Assembly: GCA_000715635.1 (NCBI GenBank)
Contig: KL569113.1
Span: forward strand, 25,649 to 38,046
Origin: Streptomyces violaceus
Lineage (GTDB): Bacteria > Actinomycetota > Actinomycetes > Streptomycetales > Streptomycetaceae
Direction: 5' to 3'
DNA: 12,398 nucleotides
Made by a program: the position numbers and the translations under genes. Below are positions 531 through 10,532 of this stretch, piece by piece; within the stretch, counting starts at the first letter, position 1, and the number at the start of each line of letters is the position of its first letter. The notes under the pieces were generated by a model. That model had not been told where the DNA came from, did not search any database, and saw only the letters and a program-made list of their open reading frames with translations.

Positions 531-572
531 TGCCCCCGGCAGGATTCGAACCTGCGACACCCGCTTTAGGAG
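531..572 (-). repeat. att core, left copy (attL), partial tRNA-Arg 3' end
   Basis: Forty-two bases identical to 10460-10501. They cover the anticodon loop, the 3' anticodon stem, the variable region, the T arm and the 3' acceptor strand. Beyond 572 the sequence no longer follows the tRNA. On the acceptor side this copy reads ...GGCTG then TGCCCCC, lacking the G that gives the encoded CCA end in the right copy. It is therefore a displaced, non-functional 3' tRNA end. Confidence 0.93.
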
Positions 573-657
573 TTCGATCTATCCCTCACCCAGGTGGGGC
601 CTGCCTTGCGCATCGGTGCCACACGTGGGTGCTGTGTGTCGCCGCCGTCCGGGGTCG

Positions 658-680
658 TTGATGTCAGCGTTGGATGTCAG
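658..680 (+). repeat. Tandem GATGTCAG pair, putative integrase arm sites (left end)
   Basis: GATGTCAG occurs at 660-667 and 673-680, 13 bp apart. Both copies are embedded in TTGATGTCAG and TGGATGTCAG. The same arrangement with the same spacing and orientation occurs at the other end, 10398-10419. In a circularised element the two pairs would flank the 42 bp core on either side, as expected for the arm-type sites of a bivalent tyrosine recombinase. The distance from the core is 85 bp here and about 40 bp on the integrase side. Confidence 0.7.
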
Positions 681-1493: not shown

Positions 1494-1646
1494 CCAACAC
1501 GCTTGCCAACTGTGTCGGTGGCCTGCTGGGGTGTGTGCGGGGGCGTTCACCTGCGTTCATGGGCGGCTTGCCCGTGAGGCGAACTCGGCGCGCGGTCCTT
1601 GGTGAACGGCCGTGAACGGCTCTGAATGAGACGGAAACTGAGACGG
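1494..1646. repeat. Module X, copy 1: tRNA-Ser-like core plus tandem repeats (relict att flank?)
   Basis: This module is repeated in the same orientation at 4361-4513. Order: CCAACACGCTTGCCAAC (1494-1510), which read on the minus strand resembles the anticodon arm of tRNA-Ser(GGA). Then a 29 bp block identical in both copies (1540-1568) containing the inverted-orientation pair GTTCACC/CGTTCA. Then TGAACGG at 1603 and 1613, and finally TGAGACGG at 1627 and 1639 (12 bp apart). The core-to-repeat distance is about 92 bp, close to the 85 bp at the genuine left end of the element. It fills most of the 415 bp gap between the genes ending at 1717 and starting at 1301. I see nothing else in 1314-1493. 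Alternative reading: a duplicated regulatory region. Confidence 0.62.
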
Positions 1647-1716
1647 GGGCCCGGCCGCGCTGAGCTGCCCCGAAGGCCGGGTTCCTCTCACAGGGGCGCA
1701 CGCCCTCGAGTGGTGC

Positions 1717-2238
1717 TCAGGGGTGCCGCTGAGTGCGGGTGTCGTGGCTGGGCGCCAAGGGATCGAAGGGCAATTCTGGGATGCCGAGTTCTTGGCGCAT
1801 GGCGGATGCGGTGGCCTGAACGGCCTTGTAGTAGGTGTGCTGTGCGGTCTGGAAGGTGCCATCCGTGATGTGCGCGCCGTCCGCGAGTAGATCGCGCAGA
1901 GTTCGGACGGTGCGGAACGCTTCGACGCCCAGCTCGACCACGCGAGGCGGGGCAAGCATCGTCAGGCCGAACCGTTGCTCGAACAGACCGGACTCTGAGA
2001 AGGCGGCACGGACTGCACGCCTGCGATCTTCAGGTGTGTCGTAGGCAGCTTCTGAGGCGAAGCGCATGCTCTCTGTCGCGCGGGCCAGGTGAGAGAGGTA
2101 GGTCACGAAGGCTTCGCGCAGAACGGTCTGCGCGTCTGCTCGTTGGGCACGCTTCCAGCGGTCTCGGTCCACAACGAATGTCGCGACGATGCCAGCGAGT
2201 GCGCCGGCTATGGCACTCAGAGGTGCAGTCCAGTCCAT
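1717..2238 (-). CDS. Hypothetical protein, N-terminal membrane helix plus helical cytoplasmic domain (173 aa)
   Basis: No function is recognised. A hydrophobic segment spans about residues 6-23 (LSAIAGALAGIVATFVV) and is followed by a basic patch (DRDRWKRAQR). The positive-inside rule then puts the rest of the protein in the cytoplasm. Residues about 35-150 are predicted helical with many Ala, Arg and Glu residues (REAFVTYLSHLARATESMR). This is the same plan as the proteins at 2984-3628 and 3841-4305: short N-terminal anchor, basic linker, then an Arg/Ala-rich helix with a YxxYxxxL-like pattern. The ATG at 2238 has no clear Shine-Dalgarno. Upstream lies a type Y repeated module; downstream, before its stop, lies a type X module. 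It could be a stand-alone cargo gene of a relict element end. Existence of the gene is likely; its role is unknown. Confidence 0.75.
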   Translation of the reverse strand: MDWTAPLSAIAGALAGIVATFVVDRDRWKRAQRADAQTVLREAFVTYLSHLARATESMRFASEAAYDTPEDRRRAVRAAFSESGLFEQRFGLTMLAPPRVVELGVEAFRTVRTLRDLLADGAHITDGTFQTAQHTYYKAVQATASAMRQELGIPELPFDPLAPSHDTRTQRHP

Positions 2239-2304
2239 ACGACTGTATTGAGCACACGTTGTTGCGCGCTGTGAAGAAGGAAAGCGGTCCCAAGCGCTGA
2301 TGAT

Positions 2305-2446
2305 CTCAGCTTGGGAAGCTTGGGTCCTCCGCGCTCGATAGGCGCGCTGACCTGCTGCGCAGCAGCGTCACGACGTGTGGACGTGCTCGGTGAGTGACAG
2401 CTGTTCCCCGTGGCTCCCCGCGCTATCTGGCACGGGTCTGGCACGG
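2305..2446. repeat. Module Y, copy 1: tRNA-Gly-like core plus tandem TGGCACGG pair
   Basis: The module begins with CTCAGCTTGGGAAGCT (2305-2320), which on the minus strand matches the anticodon stem-loop of Streptomyces tRNA-Gly(CCC) as I recall it. Eighty-seven bases later come two CCCCG blocks (TTCCCCG at 2404, then TCCCCGC). Next is ATCTGG and a pair of TGGCACGG at 2428-2435 and 2439-2446, 11 bp apart. The pair ends 3 bp before the stop codon of the next minus-strand gene. The second copy at 3685-3826 has the same order with core-to-TTCCCCG spacing of 100 instead of 99 bp. It lies 67-208 bp upstream of the gene starting at 2238, so a promoter/operator role is the alternative. Confidence 0.6.
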
Positions 2447-2449
2447 TGC

Positions 2450-2764
2450 TTACCGCGGCCCTGGCGGCTTGGGGACACCCTTGTCCATCAGCGCGTTGGT
2501 GAACGCAACCGCGAACCGGTGTGTCTCGGGTGTCACGTCGGTGGGCTCGCTGGCGTACCAGCGGAAGGTGTCCGGGTTTCGCTCAGCCTCGTTCAACCAG
2601 TGGGCCAGGCGGTGAAGCTCTCCTTCGCTGAGCCTGGTGGCGGCCTGATGAACCCACGCCTCATCTGGCCCGGTGTACGTCCCCAGAGCTATAACGGCCA
2701 GCTCCACCACGTCCGGCGCGAAGACAGACCGGCAAAGATCACGGGTATCAGGAGAGACCGGCAT
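2450..2764 (-). CDS. Hypothetical small protein (104 aa)
   Basis: No family is recognised. The protein beginning MPVSPDTRDLCRS is mainly helical and acidic with no membrane segment. Its middle reads ELHRLAHWLNEAERNPDTFRW, followed by TPETHRFAVAFTNALMDKG. The frame stays open upstream to 2983, but that extension is Arg/Ser/Cys-rich and looks non-coding, so I chose the ATG at 2764; no good Shine-Dalgarno supports it. The stop codon is 3 bp from the TGGCACGG pair of the adjoining Y module. The gene that starts at 3628 and ends at 2984 lies upstream on the same strand, leaving a 219 bp gap. In that gap I see no repeat, hairpin or tRNA-like core. It may share that gene's transcript or have its own promoter. 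Confidence 0.6.
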   Translation of the reverse strand: MPVSPDTRDLCRSVFAPDVVELAVIALGTYTGPDEAWVHQAATRLSEGELHRLAHWLNEAERNPDTFRWYASEPTDVTPETHRFAVAFTNALMDKGVPKPPGPR

Positions 2765-2983
2765 ACGCCGAGGATGCGGTGTCCAGGATGGCAGGGCAAT
2801 AGAGAGTCGTCGCCGACTGTCGCACCCCTGACGCCGGCCGGACTGTACACGTGACCTCTTCGTCCCGAAGCAACTGGACCGCGTGCTTGGCCTCGGGCTT
2901 GTGTGCCGCTCACCTGCGCTGACGGTCCGCAGGCATCCGCCCTTGTCCGCCGCTGTCTTCGGCGTTGTCGCGCAGTTAGACAC

Positions 2984-3628
2984 TCACTGGTCCGGGTCCC
3001 CAGACAGCCTGTCGATGATCGTGGCTGCCCGACTACGGGCCTGGTCCGATTCAGGCTCACTGCCGTGGGCACGAACAGCTTCCATCACAAGCATGCGATA
3101 GTCGCGCCTGACTCTCTTTGCTTGATCTATGGCCGCGCGCAGCTCGGCCACGGGGGCGGGCCCACGGGCTGATGAGGTCACATTCTCGCCTTCAGCGAAC
3201 CAGCCGAAGGCGATGTGCGCGGCTCCTTGGGTGGCTGCTCCTAGTCTCGCTGCTGCGTAAGCGACGTCCTCCGGCCCTTCCAGGAGGACGCGTTCGTAGG
3301 CCGTGCTAGTGGAAGCTTCGAAGCTATCTCTCAAGCGGGCAAGCGCCGCATCTGGCGAGGAAGCATCACCTGACATGAAGTCAGCTACCCACCAGAGCGC
3401 GTCAAGCTGCGTAGAGATCTCCGCCGCGTAGGCGGCATATGCCTGCCGTCGGGGCTCTCGTAGCTGCGCGGTATGGTCCGCGCGTATTTGCCGTTCCGCC
3501 TGCCGCTCTTGCGTAGCCAACTGCAGCTTCACCTGGGACCGGGCGAAGTAACCAGTCACCCCTGCAGCAGTTGCTGTGCCCAGTGCACCAACTGCCGCGC
3601 CTAGTAGTGCCGCGAGACTTGCATCCAT
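2984..3628 (-). CDS. Hypothetical protein, N-terminal membrane helix plus long helical domain (214 aa)
   Basis: No function is recognised. The chosen ATG places a small-residue hydrophobic segment at about residues 4-27 (LAALLGAAVGALGTATAAGV). It is followed by a polar, Gln/Arg-rich helix that could form a coiled coil (QVKLQLATQERQAERQIRAD), then RRQAYAAYAAEISTQLDALW. The rest is Ala-rich and predicted helical to the C-terminus. The plan matches the products of 1717-2238 and 3841-4305, including the Arg-x-x-AYAAYA segment after the linker (compare RLDAYSAYAGAL at 3841-4305). A GTG at 3673 would add 15 polar residues before the helix and is possible. Its upstream region is the second Y module, and the 104-aa gene lies downstream on the same strand. 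Such proteins are common and uncharacterised in Streptomyces; a membrane-tethered scaffold or sensor is only a guess. Confidence 0.78.
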   Translation of the reverse strand: MDASLAALLGAAVGALGTATAAGVTGYFARSQVKLQLATQERQAERQIRADHTAQLREPRRQAYAAYAAEISTQLDALWWVADFMSGDASSPDAALARLRDSFEASTSTAYERVLLEGPEDVAYAAARLGAATQGAAHIAFGWFAEGENVTSSARGPAPVAELRAAIDQAKRVRRDYRMLVMEAVRAHGSEPESDQARSRAATIIDRLSGDPDQ

Positions 3629-3684
3629 GTCTTCATTCTCGGCGTCTTGATCCTTTCCCGTGCCAGAACGCACGAGTCCGCACG

Positions 3685-3826
3685 CTCAGCTTGGGAAACT
3701 GCGAGCATATTGCGGCCTGCCCGTGCAATGACCTAGGGGAACGCCCCGATTGCCGCCTCCTCAGGCTGGACCGCTTCACCGTGATTCCCCGCTGTTCCCC
3801 GCTCAATCTGGTGCGCTTGTGGTGCA
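3685..3826. repeat. Module Y, copy 2: tRNA-Gly-like core plus tandem TGGTGCR pair
   Basis: CTCAGCTTGGGAAACTG (3685-3701) is preceded by CGCAC and a CGAGTC. Together these resemble the anticodon arm and start of the T arm of tRNA-Gly(CCC), read on the minus strand, with a few mismatches. One hundred bases from the core start is TTCCCCGCTGTTCCCCGC (3785-3802), then ATCTGG. Then come TGGTGCG (3809) and TGGTGCA (3820), 11 bp apart. The repeat unit differs from copy 1 (TGGCACGG) while framework, spacing and position just before a stop codon (3841) are kept. That is what one expects if the repeats are binding sites whose recognition sequence changed together with a cognate protein. Confidence 0.6.
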
Positions 3827-3840
3827 GCCCGCCATGCGCA

Positions 3841-4305
3841 TCAGAGATGACGCTTGGACGCTCTGACCAGTCGACTGATGTCGTCGCGGGTCTTTACCCT
3901 GCGCTGGTCTAGTTCGGTCCTGCTGTCCGTCTTGGGCAGGGCTGTGACGTCCGCAAGTGCAGCTTCTGCCGCCTCGCTCAACACCTCGTCATCGGTGAGC
4001 ATCTGCACCCGGAAGAGAGCTTCTTGGGCGCTGGAGCGCAGGTCGTATGCGCGGACTCGCACCACGCCGGGGTCCTCGTGTGGTACTTGTTCGTGTTCGC
4101 AGAACCAGAGATGTACCAGGCAGCGGCGGTAGTTGATGAGTGCGCCGGCGTAGGCGGAATAGGCATCGAGTCGCTCCTGGCGGAGCCTCTCATGACGGGT
4201 GAACTGATGCCCCTTGTCGGTGGTGCGCTGCTGAAACGCCAGGGTGAGCCCCGAGCCGAGCAGGGTTCCCAGAACGGCTATGGCACTGGCGATGATGGTC
4301 TCCAC
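3841..4305 (-). CDS. Hypothetical protein, N-terminal membrane helix plus helical domain (154 aa)
   Basis: No function is recognised. It starts at GTG (4305): METIIASAIAVLGTLLGSGL, a hydrophobic helix at about residues 3-24. Then follow a basic, His/Gln-rich linker (KGHQFTRHERLRQERLDAYS) and helical sequence with LFRVQMLTDDEVLSEAAEAALAD. The C-terminus is strongly basic (RLVRASKRHL). The anchor, linker and R-x-DAYSAYAGAL arrangement is shared with the 214-aa and 173-aa proteins nearby, which suggests a diverged family, although sequence identity is low by eye. A GGGG lies too close to the GTG to be an ideal Shine-Dalgarno. It diverges from the plus-strand gene at 4559, and the whole of X module copy 2 lies between them. 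Confidence 0.75.
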   Translation of the reverse strand: METIIASAIAVLGTLLGSGLTLAFQQRTTDKGHQFTRHERLRQERLDAYSAYAGALINYRRCLVHLWFCEHEQVPHEDPGVVRVRAYDLRSSAQEALFRVQMLTDDEVLSEAAEAALADVTALPKTDSRTELDQRRVKTRDDISRLVRASKRHL

Positions 4306-4360
4306 ACCCCAAGCTGATCACGCATCACCGGCCGGGCGCAGTACACGCCCTGCTCTCATG

Positions 4361-4513
4361 CCAACACTATTTCCAACTGTGTTGGTGTGGCCTTGGGCTG
4401 GGTGCAGGGGCGTTCACCTGCGTTCATGGGCGGCTGGCCGTCGGCGTGGTCACGGCTCAGGCCCTCGGCTGACCGGTCATGAACGGGGCTGAACGAGACG
4501 GAAACTGAGTCGG
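4361..4513. repeat. Module X, copy 2: tRNA-Ser-like core plus tandem repeats
   Basis: CCAACACTATTTCCAAC (4361-4377) is the counterpart of 1494-1510. Where the two copies differ, one or the other keeps the tRNA-Ser(GGA) base, so together they match CCAACACGCTTTCCAA. Then comes the 29 bp block shared with copy 1 (4407-4435), TGAACGG at 4480, TGAACGA at 4490, and CGAGACGG (4494) with TGAGTCGG (4506), 12 bp apart. The motif GACGGAAACTGAG is identical in both copies. CCAAC and GTTGG around 4373-4385 also form a palindrome. The module fills the divergent gap between the GTG at 4305 and the ATG at 4559. Confidence 0.62.
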
Positions 4514-4558
4514 ACGGCGGGGCCAGCTCGCTAGTGCTCTTGGTGTCGAGGAGGGGGC

Positions 4559-4888
4559 ATGGCACCCGTCCGCAAGGGATCACGAGGGATAGTGGTCGAT
4601 GGCACGGTCTACCGTTGGCGTCTGCGAGGCAAGCCGACGTACTCCCAGGGCCTGGCCTGGTCGCCGTGTACGTTCGCGGTCGAGCATGCAGATACCCCGG
4701 GGGCGACCCTGGTGGTTACAACCGATCAGCCACATCAGAGCAACTGGATCGGTCGCGAGGCCAAGACTGTGCTGCCCTCCGGTGTTGCCGTGGCGGTTCG
4801 GCTTGCCCTGCGCGAGGGCTGGACTCCGACGGTTGCGGGCTCCGCGTTCCACCTCGACCAGTCCTCCGGCTTCACGCCCTCATCCTGA
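4559..4888 (+). CDS. Conserved hypothetical protein (109 aa)
   Basis: A confident coding call. A strong GAGGAGGGGG Shine-Dalgarno at 4548-4557 lies just before the ATG, and codon use is typical of Streptomyces. The protein reads RGIVVDGTVYRWRLRGKPTY near its start and then WSPCTFAVEHAD. It contains an NWIG motif near residue 62 and ends AFHLDQSSGF. I recall this type as a widespread small Streptomyces protein with short beta strands, no signal peptide and no membrane helix, but I cannot assign a function. It is the only plus-strand gene of the left half and lies just past the second X module. The 152 bp between it and the patatin-like gene contain only a weak minus-strand open frame (4872-5021) with one hydrophobic segment. 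Confidence 0.85.
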   Translation: MAPVRKGSRGIVVDGTVYRWRLRGKPTYSQGLAWSPCTFAVEHADTPGATLVVTTDQPHQSNWIGREAKTVLPSGVAVAVRLALREGWTPTVAGSAFHLDQSSGFTPSS

Positions 4889-5040: not shown

Positions 5041-7719
5041 TTACCGGAAGATCTTTCCTTTAATTCGTTGAATCTGCGGTTTTAGTTGGCCCTCCCAACT
5101 CAAGCGTGAAACACGCGATTCAAGCCACAGGATCGCAGCAACGGCGAGTGGTGCTGCAAGCGTGGCTAGGCTGGCAGCACCGAACGTGTTCCACGACCAA
5201 CCTGAATCAAGGATGATACCGAGAAGGAAGAAGGCGACCCCTGTTGTCGCCACGGCAACAGTGAAGATAATGATCTTGCTTGCCGATCTACCCGCTTTGA
5301 GAGCACTTGCTGGTTTCCTCTTCAACCGCCACCACCAGTACCAGCGCCCGAAAGCAGCCAACCAACGTGATGGTCGTAGCTGATGCCCAATGTGGGCCTC
5401 TTTACCCGCTAGTAGCGCCCCCCACAACAGAGTTAGCCAGCCCCTCCACTTTCCGCCAAGCGGTGAGCCTGAGCCCAGGAGTACGCGCAGAGCGGCGGCT
5501 GCAACCCGTTGTGCCGTTGGCCCGTGCCCCTTCTCGAACAGCGCCGCGTCGTCAGCAGCTGAAAGTTCCCTTAGCCGGTCCCTCATGGACACGTTCTCTT
5601 TTTTTAGAATTGCCTGGTGAATCATTTTCTCGCAGGCCCAGCGTTCTTCGGGATCGCAGATGAACAGGCGAAGCAAGTGATGGGCTGCGTCTAGCCTGCC
5701 CCACGTGAAATCAGATGCTCGCCATTCTTCGCTCACGAACGCGCCGAAGTGGTTTAGCCGTGTTCCATACAGCTTCCTTTCTCCCAAGGGCGCAAATGCA
5801 TCCTGCGGAAGGGCTGGGCTGGGCGCATCAGGCCCGAGTCTCAGGAATTGAAACTTTGGTGAATGCTGGCCAGATTGCGCTGGCGGAACGAATGCTTGAG
5901 TCAGGATCTCTGACACGAGGAACGACCTGATAACTTCCCGCTCGATGCTGAACGTACGGGTACGCGATGCCGGCCCGTCACTCCCAACCCGAGACCCATT
6001 CTCACTCTTCAGGACTTCCGTATAAATTTCCACCGCACTTTTTACGGTATCACTTAGAGCTTTATCCACTTCGAGATAACTTAGCACCGCATTGATGTGA
6101 ACAGTTACATTCTCGTGAAACAAAGAATCCTCTTCTGACTCGGCTGTTTCCTTTCTCCTGAGATGCGCAAATAGCTTTTCTTCGATCGCATGGATCGCAC
6201 GCGCTCGGCTGCTCAATTCACTCAACGACTTGCGAATAAGATCATCGCCCTGCAGCCGACGCGACTCCTCTCCTTCCGAAAATCGATCAACATCCTCCTT
6301 CGTATGGCGCAAACGATTCTCAAGGTCATCGATGAGGGTCCACATGAGTCTTTGAGCTGGAAAAACTCCCCATGGCCAAGTGGCGGCGTCAGGGTTTTCC
6401 AACGCTTCAGATGTGGAGGGAACCCACAACGGGTCGTCGTTCAGGATGACATCGGCGTCACTCAGTGGTGTGGCAGTCAAACTGGTGACTCCGCTGGCTT
6501 CGCCTCGCAACTCACGGGCCTTTTTGACTACCGTGAGGGCCCTACGGCGACGGTATTCTTGGAAAAGTCCCGAAGCAGCCTCCTGCAGCCGGAGGGACTC
6601 GGAGGGATCATTCTGTTGTAGCGCAAATAGAGAATGCAGCGGACTCTCTGTGTCGCTCCGCATGCGAGCAAACAATTCCTGAGTCCCGCTACGGAGATCT
6701 GCCTCGCGTGGATACCCTAGCGCGGTTCGAATGACATTCGAGTACTTCGAATCTGAGCAAACAGCTTCGACATTCTCTGGCCGAGCATGCGCGGCGGAGG
6801 GAACGATGTACACGATAACTCGACGGACCCACCGATCAACCCGCCGCTCGGCGATTGCGTCTAGGACCGGCCCGAATGGCGCGTTGTTAAGGACTCCCCC
6901 ATCGATGACACAACTCGCTTGAACAGGCCCGTGCTTGTGCGCATTCGGGTAGACGCGGAAGTCAAGGAGGTCCGTTTCGTCTACGGGTGCGAAGGCCAAC
7001 GGATATCCAGCGGATGCACGTGCGGCCAGTGCTAGAGCATCCGTATGCTGAAGAAAGTCATTCTTGCAGTCTTGGCCTTTCCTGTGCAGGCAGGGTTCGA
7101 CGGTCTTCCAGCCGTCCGAATCTTCCTTTTGGTACTTCACCACTTCTGGATCGAATTGGAATCGATAAACCCTTCGATGGTCTGCAACGTCGAAGTATCC
7201 GCCAAATCCATCGACGAACTCTTTTGGTAGCCCGTCTAGTGCGGTTGCGGTGATGAATAGAGTGACCGGCTTCTCTTGTCCCGGCCTGGCGGCCTGAGTC
7301 AAATCTCGCAGGATGTTTTTAATTTTTTCGTGGAAGTAGGATCCGTCGAGCAAGCTATTGGCAGGTGGTTTTCTGAGCAGTCCGGTCCGTGTTAGTGCAG
7401 CAGACTCTTCCCACACTTTTCTAAGATCAGGGAGTGATGCGCCACTTCCAATCGCGGTGGCAAGTAACGCTCCGTTCAATCCGCCAGCCGAAGTGCCAGC
7501 GATGACGTCGACAAGAACCTCCTTCTTTCCATGAACCACTTGCTTCCACAGTTCGTATACCTCTCGATCGCTGTCCTGATCAGGTGAAATGCCTCCGTCG
7601 TCTCCTCGGGAAGCTCGCAGCAACAAGTTGATTTCGTGGGACACCCCACCCATCCACACGGCGAGGCTAACTCCCCCGTTCAGTACCAAAGCAAGTCGGA
7701 TTTGTTCGAGTGGCTGCAT
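5041..7719 (-). CDS. Patatin-like protein (DUF3376/TIGR03607 type) with C-terminal membrane helices (892 aa)
   Basis: Patatin-like proteins hydrolyse acyl esters of phospholipids with a Ser-Asp dyad. Visible here: the glycine-rich oxyanion-hole region LNGGVSLAVWMGGV at about residues 13-26, the nucleophile motif GTSAG with Ser77, and the DGG motif with Asp273 just after ASAGYPLAFAPV. The catalytic dyad is therefore present. The N-terminal block and large size fit the bacterial 'patatin-related' group with a long C-terminal region, not the short plant-type enzymes. Residues about 400-770 are mostly helical and unassigned. Two hydrophobic segments at about 816-835 and 845-866 would anchor the protein, with a basic tail. 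Codons are more AT-rich than in neighbouring genes, suggesting recent transfer. No Shine-Dalgarno is seen; a TAGCAT box six bases before the ATG suggests a leaderless transcript. It diverges from the dioxygenase-like gene. Known patatin effectors act in anti-phage systems such as CBASS, but no partner nucleotide cyclase is here. Confidence 0.9.
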   Translation of the reverse strand: MQPLEQIRLALVLNGGVSLAVWMGGVSHEINLLLRASRGDDGGISPDQDSDREVYELWKQVVHGKKEVLVDVIAGTSAGGLNGALLATAIGSGASLPDLRKVWEESAALTRTGLLRKPPANSLLDGSYFHEKIKNILRDLTQAARPGQEKPVTLFITATALDGLPKEFVDGFGGYFDVADHRRVYRFQFDPEVVKYQKEDSDGWKTVEPCLHRKGQDCKNDFLQHTDALALAARASAGYPLAFAPVDETDLLDFRVYPNAHKHGPVQASCVIDGGVLNNAPFGPVLDAIAERRVDRWVRRVIVYIVPSAAHARPENVEAVCSDSKYSNVIRTALGYPREADLRSGTQELFARMRSDTESPLHSLFALQQNDPSESLRLQEAASGLFQEYRRRRALTVVKKARELRGEASGVTSLTATPLSDADVILNDDPLWVPSTSEALENPDAATWPWGVFPAQRLMWTLIDDLENRLRHTKEDVDRFSEGEESRRLQGDDLIRKSLSELSSRARAIHAIEEKLFAHLRRKETAESEEDSLFHENVTVHINAVLSYLEVDKALSDTVKSAVEIYTEVLKSENGSRVGSDGPASRTRTFSIEREVIRSFLVSEILTQAFVPPAQSGQHSPKFQFLRLGPDAPSPALPQDAFAPLGERKLYGTRLNHFGAFVSEEWRASDFTWGRLDAAHHLLRLFICDPEERWACEKMIHQAILKKENVSMRDRLRELSAADDAALFEKGHGPTAQRVAAAALRVLLGSGSPLGGKWRGWLTLLWGALLAGKEAHIGHQLRPSRWLAAFGRWYWWWRLKRKPASALKAGRSASKIIIFTVAVATTGVAFFLLGIILDSGWSWNTFGAASLATLAAPLAVAAILWLESRVSRLSWEGQLKPQIQRIKGKIFR

Positions 7720-7725
7720 AGGGAC

Positions 7726-7731
7726 ATGCTA
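7726..7731 (-). promoter_or_regulatory. Putative -10 box for the patatin-like gene
   Basis: The sense-strand hexamer TAGCAT lies six bases before the ATG at 7719, and an in-frame TAG lies immediately upstream. No ribosome binding site precedes the ATG. Together these fit a leaderless mRNA. No clear -35 is seen. Confidence 0.35.
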
Positions 7732-7800
7732 GGTGCTCCCAGACTCCGCTCGCTCGCTCAGCTGCGTGTTGCTTAGACCATTCGACTGATTGGCTGACCT

Positions 7801-7823
7801 TGCATGCCTCGCGGTGGCATGCA
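7801..7823. promoter_or_regulatory. Perfect inverted repeat in the divergent intergenic region (candidate operator)
   Basis: TGCATGCC (7801-7808), a 7-base spacer, then GGCATGCA (7816-7823) make a perfect 8 bp inverted repeat. It sits 82 bp upstream of the patatin-like start and about 140 bp upstream of the dioxygenase-like start. A dimeric regulator binding here could control both divergent genes. No regulator gene adjoins, so it would act from elsewhere. Confidence 0.45.
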
Positions 7824-7960
7824 GCTGGCCCTTTTGCGTCCGTACTCCCTGGGCGCGAGGGTGTGGGCTCACCCGGTTGGCGGGATAGCACTGGAGGCCG
7901 GGGTCAGTTGGCGGCACCATAGGCGTATGGGGATTAATGGGTTGGCAAGCCGGAGTGAGA

Positions 7961-8704
7961 ATGAATCTCCCTGATTACAGCTCATATCTATGTGTTGACG
8001 ATCTTCTGTCTGCTCAGCGCCCACTGACGTCTAAAGACGAGGATCTGCGTGTATGGGCCGACGAGCACTTCTTTATTATCTCCCACCAGCGATCTGAACT
8101 ATCGTTGGCGCAAGTATTGGTCGATCTAGATCTGGCAACAGCCGATCTAGATTTTCGCTCCTCGAACCAGCAGCGGGCACAAATCCATCTCAGGCGGGCT
8201 TGTAGGGTCCTGGAGAGTTTGGTTGAGGACGCGGTGATGCTGGCCGAGCAGCTCAACGCTGACGCATTCGCCAGATTTCGAGGACGCCTTGGTACGGCCA
8301 GTGGCGCTCAATCGCCACAATTTAGGGAGCTACGTAAGTCATTGGGGCTGGGGCGAGACGATAGCCCTGTATATTCAGCCTTTTTGAATCTGTTGCGGAG
8401 GGAGGGGATTAATATTCGTCAGCTATATCGCGAACAGGATTCAAGAAGGATTCTATATGAGACCTCTGAATTGCTTATGGATATCGCTCAAGCGTTCTGG
8501 AAATGGGAATTGCATCATGTTCAGATGGTTGCGCGAATGGTGGGGCGCGGAGGGGGGACTGGAGGGTCGACGGGTTTGGCGTATCTATGGAAAAAGGCAG
8601 GTCCTCCATTTCCTGATCTCTGGGAGGGGAGAGAGGGCGTGAATAGGCCACCAATTGCGAGGGGAAGATTTCTCCCCTCGGGAGGAACGGATGCTCTGGA
8701 GTAG
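7961..8704 (+). CDS. Tryptophan 2,3-dioxygenase-like haem protein (247 aa)
   Basis: Tryptophan 2,3-dioxygenase (TDO) opens the indole ring of L-Trp with O2 at a haem. Numbered from the ATG at 7961, the family's key positions can be placed. HQRSEL contains His42 (His55 of the Xanthomonas enzyme) with Phe38 before it. AFARFRGRLGTASGAQSPQF contains Phe103 (Tyr113), Arg107 (the substrate-carboxylate Arg117) and Ser114. WKWELHHVQMVARMVG contains His186, the proximal haem ligand (His240). GTGGSTGLAYL contains Thr200 (Thr254). FPDLWEGR is the usual end block. The protein is about 50 residues shorter than typical bacterial TDOs, mainly through loss of the segment between the ASG motif and the last helices, and SELW has become SELS. 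An ATG at 7937 is possible, but GGAG five bases before 7961 favours the shorter form. No kynurenine-pathway genes are nearby, so the substrate may differ. The gene is AT-richer than the host. Confidence 0.87.
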   Translation: MNLPDYSSYLCVDDLLSAQRPLTSKDEDLRVWADEHFFIISHQRSELSLAQVLVDLDLATADLDFRSSNQQRAQIHLRRACRVLESLVEDAVMLAEQLNADAFARFRGRLGTASGAQSPQFRELRKSLGLGRDDSPVYSAFLNLLRREGINIRQLYREQDSRRILYETSELLMDIAQAFWKWELHHVQMVARMVGRGGGTGGSTGLAYLWKKAGPPFPDLWEGREGVNRPPIARGRFLPSGGTDALE

Positions 8705-9573: not shown

Positions 9574-9897
9574 TCAGTAGAGGCGTTGCGTGCTCGCGTT
9601 GGGTTGGAAGTCGTGTGTGCAGGCTGGGAGTTCGACGCCTTGGCGGTGGGCTAGCGGCAGGAAGACCACGGGTCGGATCGTCCAGGTGACGCGGGTGCTG
9701 GCGTGGGTCACAGAAACCGTGCAGGGTTCCATGTGTAAGAGGGCTCGTCGCGTATCGATGCGGCCGTCGTAGAGCCAGGCCCAGGCCTCGTCGGAGGCGT
9801 CCGGGTCGAGTGCTGGCGAGATGGTGCGCAGGGCGACTGCTACCCATCTGTCTGCCTGTGGTGCCGAGTAGGCGTCGAAGGATGCCCGGAGTATCGG
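9574..9897 (-). pseudogene. C-terminal fragment of an unrecognised gene, 5' end deleted
   Basis: The minus-strand frame with PILRASFDAYSAPQADRWVA, then EAWAWLYDGRID and VTWTIRPVVFLPLAHRQG, to a TGA at 9574-9576 is clearly protein-like: 107 residues with Streptomyces-like codons. There is no start codon with a ribosome binding site. Upstream of about 9897 the sequence becomes the antisense of the integrase fragment, so the 5' portion of this gene is gone. It carries one TTA leucine codon, rare in Streptomyces. I do not recognise the family; it appears soluble. Whether the fragment is expressed is unknown. Confidence 0.65.
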
Positions 9898-9902
9898 CCA
9901 CC

Positions 9903-10388
9903 CGCGACAACCGCGTCCTGTACGTCCGCCAGCAGATCCAGCGCCGCCGTGGCGTCCTGTACGACGACGACCCCAAAAGCCGCCGCCGTCGTGCCGTCCC
10001 TCTGCCCGCCCTCTGCATCGCGCCCCTGCGCTGGCACCGCATGCGGCAGGCGGCTGCCCGTGCCAAGGCGGGGGAGAGGTGGCAGGAGTCGGCCTACGTC
10101 TTCACCACCCGCACCGGCCGCCCGGTCGAGCCGCGCAACCTGTACCGCTCCTTCACCCGTGTCGCCCAGTCCGCCGGCCTCCGCGTCATCCGGCTGCACG
10201 ATGCCCGGCACGGAACCGCCACCCTCCTCACGGCGGCCGGAGTCGCGCCCCGCGTGGTGATGGAGATCCTCGGCCACTCCCAGATCAGCATCACCATGGA
10301 CGTCTACACGCACGTCGTGCAGGACACGCAGCGCGAAGCCATGAGCCATATGGACCGCCGGCTCAGGAGACGCCCCATCCGCGAGTGA
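9903..10388 (+). pseudogene. int: Tyrosine-recombinase integrase, C-terminal part only
   Basis: From NRVLYVRQQIQRRRG to the TGA at 10386-10388 this is the second half of a phage-type/actinomycete-element integrase catalytic domain. Visible: the DDPKSRRRRAVPLP strand region with the beta-hairpin Lys, HDARHG (the HxxR box), GHSQISITMDVYTHV (the second His and the nucleophilic Tyr), and a basic C-terminal tail. The arm-binding and core-binding N-terminal domains and the segment holding the first catalytic Arg (usually GxRxGE) are absent. About half the usual 370-450 residues is missing. An ATG at 9882 is in frame but has no Shine-Dalgarno, and the residues before NRVLY do not look like integrase. 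Its position, reading towards the tRNA and followed by arm repeats, terminator and att core, is the normal one for these elements. Catalysis by this fragment alone is not expected. Confidence 0.88.
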
Positions 10389-10397
10389 TCGCCCGCG

Positions 10398-10419
10398 TTG
10401 ATGTCAGAAGTGGATGTCA
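10398..10419 (+). repeat. Tandem GATGTCA pair, putative integrase arm sites (right end)
   Basis: GATGTCAG (10400-10407) and GATGTCA (10413-10419), 13 bp apart, lie ten bases after the integrase stop codon. They are the same sequence, spacing and orientation as at 658-680. The distance to the att core is about 40 bp. Confidence 0.7.
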
Positions 10420-10452
10420 AAGGCCCCGGACCAAGATCGGTCCGGGGCCTTT
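10419..10452 (+). terminator. Integrase terminator
   Basis: A 14 bp perfect stem AAAGGCCCCGGACC (10419-10432) / GGTCCGGGGCCTTT (10439-10452) with a six-base loop and an A/T-flanked base. It works for the plus-strand integrase and, being symmetrical, also for the minus-strand tRNA transcript. Confidence 0.9.
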
Positions 10453-10456
10453 TGGC

Positions 10457-10532
10457 TGGTGCCCCCGGCAGGATTCGAACCTGCGACACCCGCTTTAGGA
10501 GAGCGGTGCTCTATCCCCTGAGCTACGAAGGC
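10457..10532 (-). tRNA. tRNA-Arg (anticodon CCU)
   Basis: Read on the minus strand it folds into a standard cloverleaf. The acceptor is GCCTTCG with CGGGGGC (two G-T pairs), the D arm GCTC/GAGC, the anticodon stem CCGCT/AGCGG with loop CTCCTAA giving anticodon CCT, and the T arm GCAGG-TTCGAAT-CCTGC. The discriminator is A, followed by an encoded CCA at 10457-10459. It decodes AGG. Its 3' half is the integration site of the element to its left. Confidence 0.97.
10460..10501 (-). repeat. att core, right copy (attR), within the intact tRNA
   Basis: Identical to 531-572. It comprises the 3' part of the tRNA gene from the anticodon loop to the discriminator base. Insertion has preserved the tRNA gene, since the element supplies an equivalent 3' end including the encoded CCA. 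Confidence 0.93.

Follow-up and report, generated by a model that had tools for sequence, protein, structure and literature searches.

Left ends of tRNA-integrating elements, mixed in specificity and uniform in direction, are probably stacked in a Streptomyces violaceus tRNA-Arg element

The DNA analyzed here, called the window throughout, is a stretch of 12,398 nucleotides from Streptomyces violaceus (assembly GCA_000715635.1, contig KL569113.1, positions 25,649 to 38,046 of the forward strand). It holds an element that spans from a tRNA-Arg(CCT) 3′ half (531–572) to an intact tRNA-Arg (10457–10532), with short modules in the order R-X-Y1-Z-Y2-X. Five of these lie within 1494–4515, each consisting of a core that resembles the anticodon arm of a tRNA, then a spacer and arm repeats; one open reading frame (ORF) comes after each of them. 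An initial interpretation made from the letters alone (the sequence-only reading) had described four internal modules, two X and two Y, with one or two cargo genes apiece; the number has to be raised to five by adding Z (2852–2987), and once Z is counted every window module has a single cargo ORF. The common X/Y layout that it proposed stands for core, spacer and arms, but not throughout for the cargo: ORF 4559–4888 reads away from X2, unlike the others. The internal modules and their genes are as follows.

1494–1648, plus strand: X1, tRNA-Ser(GGA)-type left end without a tRNA 3′ half; arms 1544–1567 and 1623–1646; 78% to the C87 copy in the same genome (6.5e-28)
1717–2238, minus strand: X1 cargo ORF, 173 aa; the unit 1494–2355 matches L072 5625–6453 (76%)
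2304–2446, plus strand: Y1, tRNA-Gly(CCC)-type left end; arms about 2400–2446; from the family model; the unit 2304–2956 matches L086 (90%)
2450–2764, minus strand: Y1 cargo ORF, from the ORF list, where it extends to 2983
2852–2987, plus strand: Z, tRNA-Pro(GGG)-type left end; 8 further copies by all-against-all blastn
2984–3673, minus strand: Z cargo ORF, 229 aa, from the ORF list; passed over by the rough gene caller
3685–3826, plus strand: Y2, second tRNA-Gly(CCC)-type left end; same-genome matches C14:18377 (76%) and C122:5643 (77%)
3841–4305, minus strand: Y2 cargo ORF, 154 aa, PF27072 family; 475 relatives, PF27072 taken from precomputed annotation
4361–4515, plus strand: X2, second tRNA-Ser(GGA)-type left end; the unit 4361–4889 matches L076, L079 and L087 (about 81%)
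4559–4888, plus strand: X2 cargo ORF, 109 aa, reading away from the module; relatives in 73 loci

The Y1 cargo probably starts at 2764, because module Z begins at 2852.

The 20-nt anticodon arm of tRNA-Ser(GGA) finds its best window matches at 1494 (17/20) and 4361 (16/20), that of tRNA-Gly(CCC) at 2301 (18/20) and 3681 (17/20), and that of tRNA-Arg(CCT) at 10487 (20/20, the tRNA itself) and 558 (17/20). In 200 shuffled 12.4-kb windows the maximum was 16 for each of these arms: the cores of X1, Y1 and Y2 exceed it, while that of X2 only equals it, and the identity of X2 therefore rests on the full-length module match (X1 and X2 are 73% identical over 169 nt). The Z core agrees with tRNA-Pro(GGG) at 17/20, which is also the shuffled maximum; its identity accordingly rests on locus L085, where two Z copies adjoin a perfect tRNA-Pro 3′ half. 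X1 and X2 as well as Y1 and Y2 are direct pairs of equal type, although Y1 and Y2, with the Gly core in common, are two separate sequence families. Pairs of this kind, if functional as attL and attR, would flank a cis-mobilisable element (CIME). The sequence-only reading had proposed a composite of at least three integrase specificities that brought cargo without an integrase; we found four specificities in the window (Arg-CCT, Ser, Gly and Pro), and the sole PF00589 match belongs to the integrase fragment of the outer element. The tRNA 3′ halves, cognate integrases and right ends of the internal units are missing in the window, and the left flank of X1 is foreign sequence.

Judged by sequence comparison, the X, Y and Z modules are the left (P′-arm) ends of integrase elements of tRNA-Ser(GGA), tRNA-Gly(CCC) and tRNA-Pro(GGG), respectively. 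At C87 (same genome, partly masked) and in L123 (genome G237) X directly adjoins a tRNA-Ser(GGA) 3′ half, and the tRNA-Ser is preceded by an integrase ORF together with the same TGAGACGGAAACTGAGACGG arms. Y adjoins tRNA-Gly(CCC) 3′ halves at C14:18377 and C122:1164 (same genome) and in L086 (G026), which bears out the tRNA types that the sequence-only reading had given to the two cores. A filled and an empty site could be paired, with an X element inside the tRNA-Ser in L123 and the tRNA-Ser intact in L202. Other genomes carry three of the five internal window units as genuine left ends at a tRNA: X1 with gene 1717–2238 has this place at tRNA-Ser in L072 (76%, 869 bp) and L084 (over 252 bp), Y1 with gene 2450 at tRNA-Gly in L086 (6949–7588; 90%, 654 bp), with homology beginning at the Y core, and X2 with gene 4559 at tRNA-Ser in L076, L079 and L087. 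Z with gene 2984 and Y2 with gene 3841 were not seen as tRNA-borne ends among the compared loci; gene 3841 followed by X2 recurs in L091 (89%, 695 bp), where the sequence past the X module differs.

Arms on the integrase side were surveyed in the region between integrase stop and tRNA at 11 places, with L167 unclear. X arms were present in three of four Ser loci, R arms in both Arg-CCT loci, Z arms in one of two Pro loci, Y1-type arms in the sole Gly locus (L121) and F8/F9-type arms in the sole Arg-ACG locus (L148); the expected arms were not seen in Ser locus L075 and Pro locus L128. The same arms stand at both element ends only for Ser (L123, L131, C87) and Arg-CCT (the window, L073), and on the integrase side only for Pro (L149, where Z arms lie beside the integrase stop), Gly (L121) and Arg-ACG (L148). 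For the outer element of the window, the corresponding parts are:

531–572, minus strand: left boundary of the outer element, tRNA-Arg(CCT) 3′ half, attL core; 56-nt repeat of 10446–10501, 89%
656–680, plus strand: R arm repeats GTTGATGTCAGCGTTGGATGTCA; direct repeat of 10396–10419, 88%; the same arms adjoin the integrase stop in L073
726–1382, minus strand: R left-end cargo ORF, 218 aa when counted from its first start, from the ORF list
9810–10388, plus strand: tyrosine integrase of the outer element, truncated, 192 aa, catalytic part only (PF00589 positions 59–168 of 172); homology to L073 begins at 9902
10396–10419, plus strand: integrase-side R arm repeats, from repeat comparison
10457–10532, minus strand: intact tRNA-Arg(CCT), right boundary, from ARAGORN

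The outer element is probably incapable of moving by itself, because its integrase ORF covers the catalytic part only. Two outcomes would have refuted the sequence-only reading by its own terms: cores that match tRNA genes no better than shuffled sequence, and modules that are ordinary promoters without relation to integrases. Neither was observed, X2 being the one X or Y core that only equals the shuffled maximum. Conserved promoters or regulatory DNA would fit modules that sit between genes. However, the element ends at tRNA genes, the arm copies on the integrase side and the filled/empty pair speak against such an identity; the modules mark boundaries of tRNA integration, and we rejected the promoter interpretation, which we regard as highly improbable, on the strength of these boundaries and the integrase-side arms.

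Mixed, same-direction stacks of such modules are widespread in Streptomyces. X2 has matches in 119 and Y2 in 91 of 246 Streptomyces genomes, some of them partial. Seven family models, built from the same 89 loci in which they were then counted, gave 361 non-overlapping matches in 1.59 Mb, against 0 in reversed and 0 in Markov-2 control sequence, so that the modules lie far beyond chance. Adjacent modules have the same orientation in 271 of 274 cases (134 of 135 in loci found via one cargo protein), and integrase ORFs, searched with a model seeded from one integrase, point in the array direction in 37 of 40. When typed by tRNA, neighbours differ in specificity in 233/274 cases, and 53 of the 61 runs of three or more modules contain at least three specificities. 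X1 was also found in 2 Streptomyces plasmid records; on the large plasmid of Streptomyces cadmiisoli (L182, 8001–8679) a YfbM-family gene comes directly after an X module in the array order. Carriage of the modules by phages was rejected, as X2 had no match in the phage collection.

These counts bear on ordinary tandem accretion, in which elements of one specificity gather at one tRNA gene and decay, the internal modules being eroded direct repeats. Such accretion is documented at tRNA genes in Streptomyces, according to passages of PMC9513070, and two tRNA-Ser halves follow one another in some of our loci (L072 at 1992 and 5625, L075 at 12393 and 9909). The mixture of specificities among neighbours and within runs is not what accretion predicts, nor are internal cores of Ser, Gly and Pro type in a locus whose tRNA is Arg(CCT). 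The internal X, Y and Z modules are, moreover, little decayed: internal and tRNA-borne X copies, sorted by loose tRNA-half classes, scored 124.8 and 131.9 bits, and Y1, Y2 and Z were likewise close. Many left flanks of internal cores match other cargo regions rather than integrase-side ends. Plain accretion was thus rejected on account of the mixed tRNA types and appears improbable.

Full-length modules numbered 282, of which 23 lacked an anchored core motif. Beside the remaining 259 cores, a tRNA 3′ half was present in 60, partial in 29 and absent in 170 under stricter classes, which label the window Z 'partial', apparently by chance. Outside the modelled modules we counted 34 cores, all on the array strand, 16 of them being intact tRNA genes (with one chance match in the control). 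Most of the non-tRNA cores among them look like further left-end families. Apparent Ser or Arg(CCT) cores with other arms occur in L075 (7583), L122, L090, L174, L083 (12998) and L164 (12491), and there seem therefore to be more families than the seven modelled. In several genomes (L021 at 6302–6429, L079, L138, L140, L156 and L160) the R arms run straight into an F8 core without an intervening gene. A conserved segment of about 100 bp, F6, closely borders Y1, Y2 or Z cores on their left and follows stops of the gene-4559 type in several loci, for example in L022 (8255–8373), L076 (11788–11914) and L073 (11511–11645).

What lies to the left of the internal cores showed no tRNA kinship except for a tRNA-like half-site of about 5–11 bp, and in a number of cases it could be recognised as the far end of a cargo unit. 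The half-site CCAA was exact in 24 of 65 internal X modules (0.04 expected). Among the 20 internal R modules, 8 carried GAGCA (0 expected), a sequence equal to the tRNA arm's 5′ half when inverted; the inverted X half-site GGCG was exact in 8 cases versus 1.16 expected. F8 and F9 were left out of these statistics. Furthermore, one upstream region may join modules of different type, and the homology then stops at the core or close to it. It ends 0–50 bp from the core for L177 Y1 and L178 Y2, L121 or L079 R and L135 Y1, L073 Z and L128 F9, and window Y1 and L072 Y2, and up to about 100 bp from it in other pairs, many of the listed pairs coming from the shared segment F6 or from overlapping neighbours.

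We consider it probable that the left half of the element is a stack of left ends from other tRNA-integrating elements, joined by integrases with loss of the remainder. Each unit would consist of a P′-side attachment half (anticodon-loop core, spacer and integrase arm repeats) and the adjoining cargo ORF. A cognate integrase could recombine its own left site with a half-site-like sequence past the first gene of a second element, whereupon the remainder of that second element, including its right-hand junction, would be lost, a step that has to be assumed. Repetition would stack left ends one way and compact the row to roughly one gene per end. Pairs of equal type, such as X1 and X2, could still be substrates for a resident cognate integrase, for example the 412-aa integrase ORF at C87.

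Left junctions of this kind, half-site-like on their left, would also arise if whole elements had inserted into secondary sites of older elements and their right halves had been removed by ordinary deletion, with no special process at left ends. We hold this to be possible, though not probable, and a serious rival to left-end joining. Right-hand junctions, that is a tRNA 3′ half with loop and foreign DNA, were seen by eye at 0 of 31 Ser sites, each of which was instead followed by X arms, an intact tRNA or sequence like that of other sites; at non-Ser sites they were unclear, as against 170 internal left junctions.

Several observations weigh against left-end joining as well. No clear right-hand junction was seen at any of the sites read by eye (L137, L149, L091 and L155 are among the unassigned Gly/Arg sites), although nested insertion should leave them, and it is for this reason that the loss step is assumed. 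Among 50 gaps between relatives none could be read as a change of the array by one unit, perhaps because one genome per species was compared. Stacking of heterologous ends requires the elements to be on one molecule. Core recombination does not account for the cargo that in some cases stands behind different modules with the break just after the arms, as in L073 (Y1) and L080 (X). Enrichment of the inverted half-site holds for R, yet not for X on mean matches, and in 33/274 cases neighbours are less than 200 bp apart, which leaves hardly any space, or none, for a gene. The integrase-side arms of L121 and L149 (Y1 and Z) differ in family from the tRNA-borne left end (Y2 and F9), and, by the loose classes, internal R and F8 modules score well below their tRNA-borne copies (65 versus 91 and 88 versus 102 bits).

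The cargo itself is varied. Between modules we counted 252 ORFs in 170 clusters; the ORF picker, like the gene caller used in the window, is mechanical and rough, and its orientations (127 toward the module, 125 away) were not used as evidence. The six window cargo ORFs have no NCBIfam or PADLOC match; that of the R left end has no Pfam match either, and a direct Pfam scan of the Y2 cargo ORF was without match. Three of ten other cargo ORFs had Pfam matches above cut-off (DUF1877, DUF6221 and PIN), and the DUF1877 cargo in L085 also stands after X. Among the 73 loci with relatives of gene 4559, 70 are from named Streptomyces; within 400 bp upstream, X was present in 37, Y1 in 5 and none was found in 31. 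Outside the genus, Actinorugispora endophytica (L232) carries such a relative, and an X module lies 49 bp upstream of it.

This variety, the recurrence of the same units in different neighbourhoods and the single ORF per window module with an attachment site at one gene end would also suit integron-like mobile cassettes, excised and inserted as module plus gene in trans by resident tRNA integrases. After the stop codon of gene 4559 the next core often follows at 15–19 bp, whether it is of R, Y1 or Y2 type, which such cassettes would explain. However, insertion by a single integrase should give equal core types on both sides, whereas neighbours mostly differ, and cores outside modules are few, nearly half of them intact tRNA genes. 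We therefore find mobile cassettes quite unlikely. A polyspecific, integron-like cassette system of Streptomyces, in which single-gene units with tRNA-anticodon modules at their ends have been collected and are still being reshuffled in trans by the tRNA integrases of the lineage and no dedicated integrase exists, is unlikely too.

Two further features lie between the stack and the integrase of the outer element. In 5041–8704 a patatin-like protein (TIGR03607, 892 aa) adjoins a tryptophan-2,3-dioxygenase-like ORF (255 aa, under the NCBIfam cut-off), and both are possibly a single functional cargo. The segment 8838–9203 holds a 26-nt inverted repeat (9072–9097/9125–9150), and parts of it are 73–95% identical to segments in 11 of 27 compared loci; it is apparently mobile on its own.

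In integron arrays, small genes stand singly and in one direction, each with a recombination site next to it, and the cargo is mostly unknown. The stacks resemble them in their same-direction single-gene units. In contrast to integrons, which use IntI and attC, the stacks involve many recombinases and tRNA-anticodon cores, and adjacent sites differ in type. No IntI was found near the modules (the integron integrase model reached 36.2 of 265 bits, far below cut-off), and the tRNA-anticodon cores of four specificities in the window do not amount to an attC-type site at each cassette served by a single recombinase.

The nearest known behaviour, in the passages of PMC9513070, PMC3146451 and PMC3218068 that we consulted, is single-target accretion, alternative attL sites and segments that lack an integrase. 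For actinomycete integrative and conjugative elements (ICEs), PMC9513070 and PMC3218068 describe cis-mobilisation and tandem accretion at tRNA genes, and also Fean6303 of Frankia, which has two alternative attL sites and is excised in two sizes. As described there, ICE accretion likewise involves tRNA 3′ halves as direct repeats, stacking at one site and remnants; ICEs, however, share one tRNA target, whereas neighbouring units here mostly differ in specificity, mostly lack a tRNA half and hold about one gene each. The ssrA genomic islands of Dehalococcoides, in the portions of PMC3146451 consulted, have over a dozen tandem ssrA repeats, with 15 islands lacking an integration module. They are alike in tandem repeats and units without an integration module, and unlike in their single target gene, serine recombinases and islands that are not single-gene units. 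PAISt of Streptomyces turgidiscabies, according to the excerpts of PMC4057263, is also a Streptomyces island that excises in modules, but it is large and targets an 8-bp palindrome at the bacA end. Among the literature matches listed (titles, starts of abstracts and passages, with preprints and subscription papers outside the search) there was no description of mixed left-end stacks, in agreement with the sequence-only reading, which had taken arrays of attachment flank plus cargo to be undescribed. Mixed rows of attachment ends are apparently a genome architecture so far undescribed.

This architecture is widespread in a heavily sequenced genus and involves at least five tRNA specificities, each end typically with a small gene. 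The stacks would probably escape the notice of element finders that depend on an integrase together with flanking repeats. They record past insertions of elements and form a cassette-like, integron-like store of small genes that is built in an unusual way, and they offer ready-made alternative attachment sites for island excision. They also provide a case in which the building of integron-like arrays by tRNA integrases can be tested.

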